From Bacteroidota bacterium (GTDB taxonomy: Bacteria; Bacteroidota; Bacteroidia; B-17B0; Aurantibacillaceae): a stretch of DNA of 64,000 bases. Made by a program: the position numbers and the translations under genes. Location: the NCBI GenBank assembly GCA_013697245.1, contig JACCXH010000001.1, positions 124,001 to 188,000 of the forward strand, given 5' to 3'. The notes below the pieces were generated by a model. That model ran no database searches. It saw nothing but the letters and a program-made list of their open reading frames with translations, and had not been told where the DNA came from. Positions 43,384-47,780 of the stretch are shown here, in pieces (positions within the stretch are counted from its first letter, which is position 1; each line of letters begins with the position of its first letter).

Positions 43384-44421
43384 ATGACAGTAGACAAACT
43401 TCCAACCAGAATGCAATTAATTGCCGCGCTAATTTCGTGGTTCATCATTTGGTGGGGTTTACAATGTTTTGTTATTTTTCAGATCTTCAACAATATAAAC
43501 TTCGCGTTTATTGACGCCAGCATCTCTCTGGGTTTAACTTTAATAGGCATTTCTATTATTTATTTTGTTCAAAAGTATAGCGGTAGCTATATTAATAATT
43601 ATGGTACAAGGTTTTTTTTTATTATTGCCATCATTGCAGGAATAATTTTTTCCGAAAGATTGATATTAACCGGACTGTATTCAGGATCTGATTTTGAAAC
43701 GATGTTTAATACAACAATTACTATCAGGTTAGTTGCGGCTTTTTTACAAATAACTTTTTTTTCAGCAGTGTTATGGTTCTTATACTTTGTTAAGGTGCAA
43801 AATGAAAAGAATAGCTTGAAATTTGATGCAGAAACTACTTTAAGGCAAGCCGAGTTAATAAAATTAAGGCAGCAGTTGCAGCCTCACTTTTTATTCAACA
43901 GTTTAAACTCTATAAATGCTTTGGTTGTTTCGGAACCGCAGCAGGCCCGTAAAATGATCCAAAATCTTTCTGATTTTTTAAGGGGCACGTTAAAAAAGGA
44001 CGAGAACAAAAATGTGCCTTTTAGTGAAGAGATAAATTTATTAAAACTGTATTTAGAAATTGAAAAAGTAAGATTTGGCCATCGTTTAGCGGTTAATTTT
44101 AATATTAGCGAGGATACTTTAAATTTAAAGCTTCCGCCTTTATTACTTCAGCCAATAGTTGAAAATGCGGTTAAATTTGGTTTATACAATGTTTTAAACC
44201 AGGTAGAAATTTCAGTCAACGCACACGTAAAAAATAATTTACTGGCAATAGTTATTACGAATCCGTTTGATGAAAGTACGGCGCAATCAATGAAGGGTGA
44301 AGGTTTTGGATTATCTTTAATTCAAAAACGTTTACATCTAATTTATCACCGTACAGATCTTTTAGTGATCGAAAAGAACAATTCAATTTTTACAACTATT
44401 ATTTTAATACCACAGGCATGA
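43384..44421 (+). CDS. LytS-type sensor histidine kinase
   Basis: 345 residues. Four or five transmembrane helices occupy residues 10-140; then comes a coiled linker and the His_kinase (LytS) domain with LRQQLQPHFLFNSLNSINAL, His168 being the phospho-acceptor. A C-terminal ATPase domain has the N-box PIVENAVKFGL and the glycine loop GEGFGLSLIQKRL. Its stop overlaps the start of the response regulator gene by four bases (ATGA). No periplasmic sensory domain exists, so the signal is probably sensed within the membrane or via the LiaF-like partner. Confidence 0.92.
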   Translation: MTVDKLPTRMQLIAALISWFIIWWGLQCFVIFQIFNNINFAFIDASISLGLTLIGISIIYFVQKYSGSYINNYGTRFFFIIAIIAGIIFSERLILTGLYSGSDFETMFNTTITIRLVAAFLQITFFSAVLWFLYFVKVQNEKNSLKFDAETTLRQAELIKLRQQLQPHFLFNSLNSINALVVSEPQQARKMIQNLSDFLRGTLKKDENKNVPFSEEINLLKLYLEIEKVRFGHRLAVNFNISEDTLNLKLPPLLLQPIVENAVKFGLYNVLNQVEISVNAHVKNNLLAIVITNPFDESTAQSMKGEGFGLSLIQKRLHLIYHRTDLLVIEKNNSIFTTIILIPQA

Positions 44422-45191
44422 CCAAAGTAATATTAATTGATGATGAGCCATTGGCCAGACAAATTGTGAAAGAGTATCTTGCTGCTTTTAAAGAAATAGA
44501 AATAGTTGCTGAGTGCGGTGATGGTTTTGAAGCCGTGAAAGCAATTCAACAACATAATCCGTCTTTAATATTTTTAGATATTCAAATGCCAAAAATAAAT
44601 GGTTTTGAAACTTTAGAGCTCATCGAAAAAAAACCTGCTGTTATATTTACAACCGCTTTTGATGAGTACGCTTTAAAAGCGTTTGAACAAAATGCAGTAG
44701 ATTATTTATTGAAACCATTTAACCAGGAAAGATTTGAAAAAGCAGTTAAAAAATTCATAAATAGTAATTCCACTTTAGAAAAGGGGCTGAGGGGGATTGA
44801 TAACTATAGTTCGAATCAACAAATAGAGCAATTAGAGTCTGTTCCAAAAAAACACAGCGAAGAAGCGCATCGTGTAGTTGTAAAAAACGGCACCAGCATT
44901 CTTATTTTACCAACCGCTCAAATTATTTATATTGAAGCTTATGATGATTATGTAAAAATATTTAATAACGAAACGTTTTATTTAAAGAAGAAAACGATGA
45001 GCTATTATGAGGAGGTATTAGATCCAATGCAATTTATTCGTGTGCACAGATCGTTTATTTTAAATCTTAATTACCTAACAAAGATCGAAGCGCTGGATAA
45101 AAATAATAACCTGGCTTTATTAAAAACAGGGGCAAAAATTCCTCTCAGTAGAAGTGGTTATTCCAAATTAAAAGAAATATTGAACCTTTAA
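44418..45191 (+). CDS. LytTR-type response regulator
   Basis: 257 residues. Receiver domain 1-120 with Asp8/Asp9, phospho-acceptor Asp54 (IFLDIQMP), and the TTAFDEYALKAF and DYLLKPF motifs; then a linker and a C-terminal LytTR DNA-binding domain (IIYIEAYDDYVKIF, FIRVHRSFILNLNYL, KIPLSRSGYSKLKEIL). It binds direct repeats upstream of its targets in known relatives; targets here are unknown. The final 63 bases are homologous to a decayed copy at 45653. Confidence 0.93.
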   Translation: MTKVILIDDEPLARQIVKEYLAAFKEIEIVAECGDGFEAVKAIQQHNPSLIFLDIQMPKINGFETLELIEKKPAVIFTTAFDEYALKAFEQNAVDYLLKPFNQERFEKAVKKFINSNSTLEKGLRGIDNYSSNQQIEQLESVPKKHSEEAHRVVVKNGTSILILPTAQIIYIEAYDDYVKIFNNETFYLKKKTMSYYEEVLDPMQFIRVHRSFILNLNYLTKIEALDKNNNLALLKTGAKIPLSRSGYSKLKEILNL

Positions 45192-45224
45192 TCAAATCAA
45201 TAAAAAACAAGCCGCTTATTTTGT

Positions 45225-45232
45225 TATTTTTG
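45225..45232 (+). promoter_or_regulatory. -7 box immediately before the lipoprotein gene
   Basis: TATTTTTG, perfect TAnnTTTG, ending three bases before ATG 45236. The predicted start point is the A of the ATG, so the transcript would have no leader. No -33 TTTG is apparent. Confidence 0.5.
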
Positions 45233-45235
45233 CAA

Positions 45236-45649
45236 ATGTGTCATCAAAAATTATCTTTTGTAAGTATTATATTATTTACGATCCTTCTCTTTGGATCTTA
45301 TAGTTGTATAAAGAAAAAAAAGAACATACCGGCAGATATTAATTGTGATGAAGCACAATTGTGTGTTGGAAATTTAACAAACGATACGATTTTTTTTGAT
45401 TGGAATTCGAATACATTAGGCGATACTCTATTACCGGGCGAAGTAACCTGCATGAACACAGGGCCAATTCATATTACCTACGATAAAAGAACCGGCGAAG
45501 AAAAAAACGAAACGAGTTATGTTCACATGATAAATTCTTCGGCAGGTGGATGGTTTATTGAATTAAAAAAATGCTACAAAAGATCAAATTTTGAATATGA
45601 CGCTAAAAACCCTTCCTCCGGTTTAATTCAGCTTTATTCTGAAGAATAA
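45236..45649 (+). CDS. Lipoprotein of unknown function
   Basis: 137 residues from ATG 45236 (TTG 45221 overlaps the -7 box and is unlikely). The signal ends in a lipobox (FGSYSC, Cys24). The mature part has four further Cys (NCDEAQLC, EVTC, KKC) and beta-rich segments resembling small exported Ig-like proteins. It lies between the LytTR gene and the decayed second LytTR end, as if inserted there. No motif tells its function; it may be a target or accessory of the signalling system. Confidence 0.72.
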   Translation: MCHQKLSFVSIILFTILLFGSYSCIKKKKNIPADINCDEAQLCVGNLTNDTIFFDWNSNTLGDTLLPGEVTCMNTGPIHITYDKRTGEEKNETSYVHMINSSAGGWFIELKKCYKRSNFEYDAKNPSSGLIQLYSEE

Positions 45650-45652
45650 TAA

Positions 45653-45724
45653 GGGGTAAAAATTCCCCTTAGCGCAAGCGCTTATTGTAAATTAAAAGAA
45701 ATATTAACCTTTAGTCGATTTTAA
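45653..45724 (+). pseudogene. Remnant of the 3' end of a second LytTR response-regulator gene
   Basis: The segment reads in frame GVKIPLSASAYCKLKEILTF, close to the intact C-terminus GAKIPLSRSGYSKLKEILNL (14 of 20 residues identical) and then runs to a stop at 45724. DNA of 45652-45715 aligns with 45128-45193 with one one-base gap, and most base differences are synonymous (CCT/CCC, CTC/CTT, AGT/AGC), so the copy diverged while coding. Upstream homology stops exactly at the lipoprotein stop codon. Confidence 0.7.
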
Positions 45725-45824: not shown

Positions 45825-47780
45825 ATGGAAATTGTAAAAGGTTCAGGTTTTATTCCAGGAGAATTACTAGCTAAGATAAATTCGCCTTCCGATTTAAAAA
45901 AATTAACTGAAGATCAATTAGAGCAAATCAGCGCAGAGCTCCGTCAATATATTATTGACCTTGTATCTGTTAAGGGCGGTCACTTTGGCGCCTCTCTCGG
46001 CGTTGTAGAATTAACCGTTGCGCTTCATTATATTTTTAATACACCTTACGATCAGTTGGTTTGGGATGTTGGCCATCAGGCATACGGCCACAAGATCTTA
46101 ACTGGCCGCAGGGATGTTTTTCATACAAACCGCGTTTACAAAGGCTTGAGCGGCTTTCCAAAACGCAGCGAGAGTGAATATGATACTTTTGGCGTTGGCC
46201 ATTCATCCACCTCTATAAGTGCAGCTTTAGGTATGGCGGTTGCCAGCAAATACAATAATTTAAAAGATAAAAACCATATTGCTGTAATTGGCGATGGCTC
46301 TATGACTGCGGGCTTAGCCTTTGAAGGTTTAAATCATGCCGGTGTTACAAATGCAAACCTATTAGTTGTTTTAAATGATAATTGCATGAGCATTGATCCC
46401 AATGTTGGGGCTCTGAAAGAATATTTAACGGATATAACCACATCCCATACCTACAACAAAGCGAAAGATAAAGTGTGGGAATTATTGGGTAAAATAAGCA
46501 AGTTTGGCCCTAATGCGCAGGAAATTGCGAGCAAGGTAGAAAATGCTGTAAAAACATCATTGTTAAAACAAAGTAATTTATTTGAATCTTTAAAATTTCG
46601 CTATTTTGGGCCGGTTGATGGGCACGATGTCGTGCGGTTAACAAAAGTTTTAGCTGATCTTAAAGATATTCCGGGACCAAAATTATTACATGTTCTTACC
46701 AAAAAAGGTAAAGGTTATAAATTTAGCGAAGAAGGAAATGAAACCGTATGGCACTCTCCGGGCTTGTTCAATAAAGAAACCGGCGAGATCATTAAAGTAA
46801 TTCCTAAAACTCCGCAACCGCCAAAGTATCAGGATGTATTTGGACATACGATGGTGGAGTTAGCCGAAAAGAATTTAAGAATTACAGGAATAACTCCTGC
46901 CATGCCATCAGGCTGTTCGTTGAACATTATGATGAAAGCCATGCCGGATCGCGCTTTTGATGTGGGTATTGCCGAACAACACGCGGTTACTTTTAGTGCA
47001 GGCTTAGCTACACAGGGTTTAATACCGTATTGCAATATATACTCCTCCTTTATGCAACGCGCTTATGACCAGGTGTTGCACGACGTTGCATTACAAAATT
47101 TAAAAGTTGTTTTTTGTTTAGATCGTGGTGGCCTTGCAGGTGCTGATGGCCCTACCCATCATGGGGCATATGATCTTGCTTATTTCCGTTGTATACCCAA
47201 TATGATCGTTAGCGCGCCCATGAATGAGGAAGAACTAAGGAATTTAATGTACACCGCACAACTGGATGAAGTAACCGGCCCCTTCAGCATTCGCTATCCT
47301 CGCGGGCAGGGTGTAATGGTTGAATGGAAAACACCTTTCAAGAAAATTGAAATTGGTACTGGCAGAAAAATAAAAGATGGAACAAAAGTTGCTATCTTAT
47401 CTATTGGCCATCCCGGTAATTTAGTTACTCAAGCACTTGAACAATTAAAAGCACAAGGTATTGAGCCGGCTCATTACGATATGCGTTTTGTAAAACCGAT
47501 CGATGAGGCGCTATTGCACGAAATTTTTAGTAAATACAAAAAAATAATTACTGTAGAAGATGGTTGCATCATGGGTGGCATGGGAAGTGCAGTGTTAGAG
47601 TTCATGGCGGATAATAATTATTCAGCTCAACTCGTAAGATTGGGAATTCCCGATAATTTTATTGAACACGGCGAGCAGGCAGAATTATATGAAGAGTGTG
47701 GATTTTCTCCAAACAAAATTGCGGCCTCTGTTGTCGAAATTTTAAAAGAGAAAAAAGAAGACTTAAAAAATCACGCGTAA
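45825..47780 (+). CDS. dxs: 1-deoxy-D-xylulose-5-phosphate synthase
   Basis: 651 residues, full length. It joins pyruvate and glyceraldehyde 3-phosphate with thiamine diphosphate in the MEP route to isoprenoids. Seen: GGHFGASLGVVELTVALHY, GDGSMTAGLAFEGLNHAG...NDNCMSI (TPP binding), EQHAVTFSAGLA and LDRGGLAGADGPTHHGAYDL in the transketolase domain, and the C-terminal domain EDGCIMGGMGSAV. It heads a run with an AHSA1-type gene and clpX (gaps of 15-18 bases). Confidence 0.97.
   Translation: MEIVKGSGFIPGELLAKINSPSDLKKLTEDQLEQISAELRQYIIDLVSVKGGHFGASLGVVELTVALHYIFNTPYDQLVWDVGHQAYGHKILTGRRDVFHTNRVYKGLSGFPKRSESEYDTFGVGHSSTSISAALGMAVASKYNNLKDKNHIAVIGDGSMTAGLAFEGLNHAGVTNANLLVVLNDNCMSIDPNVGALKEYLTDITTSHTYNKAKDKVWELLGKISKFGPNAQEIASKVENAVKTSLLKQSNLFESLKFRYFGPVDGHDVVRLTKVLADLKDIPGPKLLHVLTKKGKGYKFSEEGNETVWHSPGLFNKETGEIIKVIPKTPQPPKYQDVFGHTMVELAEKNLRITGITPAMPSGCSLNIMMKAMPDRAFDVGIAEQHAVTFSAGLATQGLIPYCNIYSSFMQRAYDQVLHDVALQNLKVVFCLDRGGLAGADGPTHHGAYDLAYFRCIPNMIVSAPMNEEELRNLMYTAQLDEVTGPFSIRYPRGQGVMVEWKTPFKKIEIGTGRKIKDGTKVAILSIGHPGNLVTQALEQLKAQGIEPAHYDMRFVKPIDEALLHEIFSKYKKIITVEDGCIMGGMGSAVLEFMADNNYSAQLVRLGIPDNFIEHGEQAELYEECGFSPNKIAASVVEILKEKKEDLKNHA

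Follow-up and report, generated by a model that had tools for sequence, protein, structure and literature searches.

In the window analysed here (the whole stretch of 64,000 nucleotides, positions 124,001 to 188,000 of contig JACCXH010000001.1 from a bacterium of the Aurantibacillaceae), a LytTR response regulator gene is followed by a small lipoprotein-like gene and, directly behind that, by a short piece of DNA which reads like the end of the regulator gene itself. How did a second end of the LytTR gene come to lie beyond another gene, and which of the two ends is the older resident of the locus?

The repeated end of the LytTR gene

The features of the locus, which belongs to a 4.4 Mb genome (G000), are collected in Table 1. 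The kinase and LytTR genes overlap by 4 nt, and only one ORF of any size, the lipoprotein-like gene, lies between the two copies of the gene end. The motif TAnnTTTG, a candidate for which precedes that gene, is taken here to be the Bacteroidota -7 promoter element.

Table 1. Features of the LytTR-dxs locus, in window positions
Feature	Positions	Strand	Remarks
LytS-type sensor histidine kinase gene	43384..44421	+	Pfam His_kinase PF06580, E 3.4e-26
LytTR response regulator gene	44418..45191	+	intact; Pfam Response_reg 2.2e-25, LytTR 1.2e-22
Copy A of the repeat, present LytTR gene end	45128..45193	+	probably arrived with the insertion (direction from G019 and G007)
Candidate -7 promoter element TAnnTTTG	45225..45232	+	upstream of the lipoprotein gene; weak
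Small lipoprotein-like gene	45236..45649	+	137 aa; intact and under selection; stop at 45647-45649
Hairpin AAGGGG-N8-CCCCTT	45651..45670	+	within the remnant
Copy B of the repeat, remnant	45652..45717	+	probable displaced LytTR gene end; frame broken by a 1-nt deletion
dxs	45825..47780	+	constant right-hand neighbour across close species

The repeat of the LytTR gene end behind the lipoprotein gene is confirmed. It runs directly (45128-45188 and 45652-45712) over 61 nt with 79% identity at a spacing of 524, and its score was reached by none of 1000 dinucleotide shuffles. The downstream copy is a decayed version of the last 20 LytTR codons and, when searched against the whole genome, finds the LytTR gene end as its sole convincing match besides itself (E 5e-11; next match, E 0.013). 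As a control, ORF ends were compared with the 2.5 kb downstream of each, using stop-to-stop frames of at least 100 codons on both strands of the window and of loci L042-L128 (931 kb, with some loci overlapping). The LytTR gene end ranked second among 1623 ORF ends for a downstream self-copy, the first rank being held by a simple tandem repeat.

The preliminary description had read GVKIPLSASAYCKLKEIL in frame from the remnant and had placed the boundary of homology at the end of the lipoprotein gene. Both statements are correct: the frame is kept over 18 codons, after which a 1-nt deletion near the end of the remnant puts the stop codon out of frame, and the copy begins 2 nt past the lipoprotein stop. 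Its alignment of 45652-45715 with the LytTR gene end also stands as far as the likeness is concerned, but the differences are not mainly synonymous, as had been stated, since about five synonymous and five non-synonymous changes are found across 51 nt. Across the remnants described below, non-synonymous change is in excess relative to other gene ends.

The putative lipoprotein has a hydrophobic N-terminus and a loose lipobox, with Cys24 invariant in all five aligned members; the family has no Pfam match and nothing above the cut-off in NCBIfam. Relatives are scattered, with 7 of 60 near genomes matching at E<=0.01 and 9 of 87 genomes of the order at E<=1e-5. Between G000 and a second species of the genus, G019, the lipoprotein is 77% identical, with a pN of 0.18 and a pS of 0.75; because this pS is saturated, the nominal dN/dS of 0.05 is set aside and the claim is limited to a pN far below pS. 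By this measure the gene is under selection. Neighbouring genes give pS values of 0.42-0.74 for the same pair, i.e. the lipoprotein gene is equally diverged, with saturated synonymous sites, and thus no recent transfer between G000 and G019 is seen. From its position behind the LytS/LytTR pair, the protein may have an accessory role for that pair in the envelope.

Occupied, scar and empty sites in related species

LytTR protein identity is 86-93% in five species of the same genus (G026, G007, G006, G019 and G021), and the order kinase-LytTR-dxs is kept in all six close species, G000 included. The lipoprotein gene is present at the LytTR-dxs site in G000 and G019 only, and in G019 it is accompanied by a remnant, as in G000. 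The G019 remnant is in frame with the gene end of its sister species through to TGA; the refuting outcome named in the preliminary description, a relative that has the lipoprotein gene but a 3' similarity absent or out of frame, thus did not arise. In G007 a remnant lies directly after the LytTR stop and there is no lipoprotein gene. The unoccupied site anticipated in that description is found in G026, G021 and G006, in which the gap between LytTR and dxs is about 110 nt and holds no remnant (209 to 974 of 1000 shuffles reach the score; for G006 the tails of G026 and G021 were the only queries). No remnant was found in the outgroup G022 either (439 to 741 of 1000); the corresponding counts in G003 are 38, 70 and 161 of 1000. 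Together, the empty, occupied and scar states show the addition of a gene beside a signalling operon without the operon being broken.

The short spacer of G007, ATTAGTTAAC, recurs immediately upstream of the lipoprotein start in G019, a hint that the lipoprotein gene was once present in G007 and has been lost. A donor type, in which LytTR and the lipoprotein gene would stand together without a remnant, was not found among the relatives examined, and none of the papers searched names this locus.

Origin of the two copies

Insertion with duplication of the gene end was one of two histories put forward in the preliminary description. Its outcome agrees with the three states of the site; the roles of the copies are to be refined, since the end that was there first is probably the downstream piece, and the one now borne by the gene probably came with the insertion. 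In G019 the intergenic stretch matches the gene end of the sister species G021 (score 35, reached by 0 of 1000 shuffles) and does not match its own (score 19, 517 of 1000). The remnant is 70% identical to the G021 gene end and 68% to that of G006, compared with 58% to its own, and has T and K codons at the positions of RETLKL in G021 and G006; gene ends of the KEILNL type are found in the G019 gene itself, in G000, in G026 and, nearly so, in G007. Furthermore, the G019 LytTR gene diverges from G021 at column 716 (2-log-unit range 639-725) and from G006 at column 704 (range 622-731), with 1 of 500 codon shuffles in each case, and both change points fall upstream of the start of the repeat at column 738. 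No change point was detected between G021 and G006 (257 of 500 shuffles), G007 and G026 (234 of 500) or G000 and G026 (453 of 500). A remnant that resembles the sister's gene end, combined with a gene that turns foreign-looking before the repeat, supports the downstream copy as the resident end in G019 and the present gene end as the foreign one.

For G007 the shuffle test by itself points, less firmly, to the same assignment of resident and foreign ends, the intergenic stretch matching the gene end of G026 (score 37, 0 of 1000 shuffles) and not its own (score 19, 203 of 1000). The G000 remnant has 82% identity to its own gene end and a nearly equal 80% to that of G026, so that the direction is undecided for the copies in the window. 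A clade of the G019 remnant with the G021 and G006 gene ends has a FastTree support of 0.86 and an IQ-TREE bootstrap of 52, on short tails, and the likeness between remnants and empty-site gene ends is inflated by the old hairpin letters that they have in common.

We consider it probable, with a fair measure of doubt, that the remnant is the scar of a displacement in which an incoming LytTR 3' end, together with the lipoprotein gene, pushed the old end downstream. The source would be DNA of a related bacterium in which the 3' part of a LytTR gene was followed by the small lipoprotein gene. Its left join would have been made by homologous recombination inside the resident LytTR gene and its right join immediately upstream of the GGGG in that gene's last 20 codons. 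The regulator would thereby have stayed in frame with a new end, with the lipoprotein gene next behind it, and the old end would have been stranded between the lipoprotein gene and dxs, decaying there. The repeat, the three states of the site and the selection on the lipoprotein gene are observed, and the direction of displacement and the one-sided homology are what we infer. Insertion by one-sided homology would account for the inserted gene, for a gene end that is foreign and a resident end that is displaced, and for the fact that no recombinase is seen; displacement would also explain why a piece of protein can be read in frame between two genes, which is otherwise a puzzle.

Independently of the remnant, exchange between species at the LytTR locus is likely from the gene trees. 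The LytTR tree places G000 with G026 (0.94), whereas the dxs and clpX trees place it with G006, G019 and G021 (1.00 and 0.94, respectively), a conflict that indicates inter-species exchange at the locus; the kinase tree places it firmly with neither group (0.82 with the outgroup). Other neighbours besides dxs and clpX also group G000 with G006, G019 and G021, unlike LytTR. As to the number of events, TATTGT is common to the remnants of G000 and G019 and GGGGTAAAAATTCCCC to those of G000 and G007, and such common letters favour one old event; the sister-like remnants favour several exchanges. A single old insertion would fit, and would need several later losses. Dating by synonymous sites, as proposed in the preliminary description, was rejected: the tail has about 11 such sites, and between species these sites are near saturation.

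Duplication of the gene end in place, by slippage or unequal exchange, with the lipoprotein gene inserted afterwards between the copies, would agree with the two G000 copies being near-best matches of each other (82%) and with the few letters past the stop codon that are common to both. It would, however, require two events at the same point, and the remnants of G019 and G007 are unlike their own gene ends; we judge it unlikely.

Integrative elements that use the 3' ends of genes restore the gene end and leave the old end at their far side. A site-specific element of half a kilobase, with its own attachment copy and a recombinase encoded elsewhere, might likewise have entered the palindrome at the LytTR 3' end: the gene end is restored, a scar is seen in G007 and the right junction at GGGG is identical in all three species with a remnant, although one old event gives the same junction too. 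Unlike such elements, the LytTR insert is about 0.5 kb long and is without an integrase, no recombinase lies between the repeats and no free or mobile relative was found. The lipoprotein has no match in the plasmid, phage and viral-contig collections searched, and no gene-end repeat flanks its relatives at L036, L037, L038 and L041, the four loci that the flank check covered (the weaker relatives at L039, L040 and L130-L133 fall outside it). A mobile lipoprotein cassette was rejected on these grounds, and entry of a site-specific element has, in our estimate, a low probability.

The other history in the preliminary description, a complete tandem LytTR gene of which the lipoprotein gene replaced all but the tail, would suit a remnant that is in frame and partly retains coding character but is improbable and unsupported by the locus, as the six close species have neither a second LytTR gene between LytTR and dxs, as looked for in relatives, nor a longer LytTR remnant. 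Of the 60 genomes searched, 25 have a LytTR match at E<=1e-60, and always a single one (a strongly diverged paralogue would escape this limit), and the G019 remnant resembles the end of its sister's only LytTR gene.

Comparable loci and the hairpin

The scar is real and well supported; as the displacement of a resident gene end by an incoming one it would be of a known kind, that of rhs and T6SS loci, in a new setting. Most discussion of the corresponding route of gene addition has so far concerned rhs loci and those of secretion effectors. Recombination with circular intermediates has been proposed for rhs tips (Jackson et al. 2009, PMC2935791) and homology-facilitated illegitimate recombination for Vibrio T6SS effector genes, the same idea being cited for rhs loci (Kirchberger et al. 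2017, PMC5361080). The LytTR locus resembles the displacement of rhs C-terminal tips in that a new 3' end is recombined, the gene stays intact and the old end lies dissociated downstream; it differs in that the new and old ends are homologous, only about 60 nt of the old end is left, a single end is displaced where rhs loci have an array, and a signalling regulator is concerned (PMC2935791). It resembles the T6SS case in a module anchored by one-sided homology, with the old gene or 3' end moved downstream, and differs in lacking effector and immunity genes, in its cargo of a small lipoprotein gene and in its occurrence in Bacteroidota (PMC5361080). Small variable segments of bacterial genomes, as described in PMC2884548, are likewise short extra segments, sometimes with direct repeats at the base, at sites that are empty in relatives; those, however, vary within species and have repeats mostly <30 bp, whereas here about 61-66 nt derive from a gene end and the comparison is between species.

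The preliminary description also held that the GGGG/CCCC hairpin looks like a terminator. It is not a canonical one: no T-run follows it on the + strand, a terminator scan lists a site on the - strand only, and the fold z-score for 45640-45720 is -1.31, little better than shuffles. GGGG-N8-CCCC lies within the GAKIPL coding sequence in G026, G021, G006 and G003, and the hairpin was thus already part of the coding sequence. Its stem is kept in the end copy closest to dxs, be it a gene or a dead remnant, in six of six close species. The gene copy has lost the stem in all three species with a remnant and kept it in the three without, and all three remnants have it; that of G019 reads GGGGAGAAAACTCCCC, with two additional inner pairs.

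A role of the hairpin in cis is possible. The chance of the eight arm positions remaining unchanged is, depending on the reference, 0.15 or 0.07 for G000 and 0.05 or 0.04 for G019, values that are suggestive only because the remnants were recognised partly by the hairpin letters; the joint codon chance of GGG and CCC is about 0.01 (window codon use, GGG 7.2% and CCC 14.9%). It is improbable that GGGG-N8-CCCC is also a site at which half-kilobase cassettes, each with a gene end of its own, enter repeatedly, the hairpin being kept as a working cis element before dxs: stem and remnant are both missing from the outgroup G022, and the few remnants are related to one another. If the pattern were true in more species, a coding-sequence hairpin would have survived as a non-coding element.

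With at most one mismatch, GGGGNAAAAATTCCCC occurs at 11 places in eight genomes, seven of them at the LytTR-dxs locus; with so few places, and most of them at one locus, it is not a common repeat, and a dispersed palindrome was rejected as its nature. The remaining places include one exact copy, an intergenic GGGGCAAAAATTCCCC in the outgroup G003 (L134, G003:C2, about 1447-1462), far from LytTR and ~80 nt before an ORF start. A palindromic repeat that is dispersed, about 34 bp long, has one copy in the LytTR linker (44765-44800), in frame (NSPFEKGVRGI-like in G026); a search with the G026 LytTR linker at E<=0.001 gave 10, 10 and 16 places in G000, G026 and G021, respectively.
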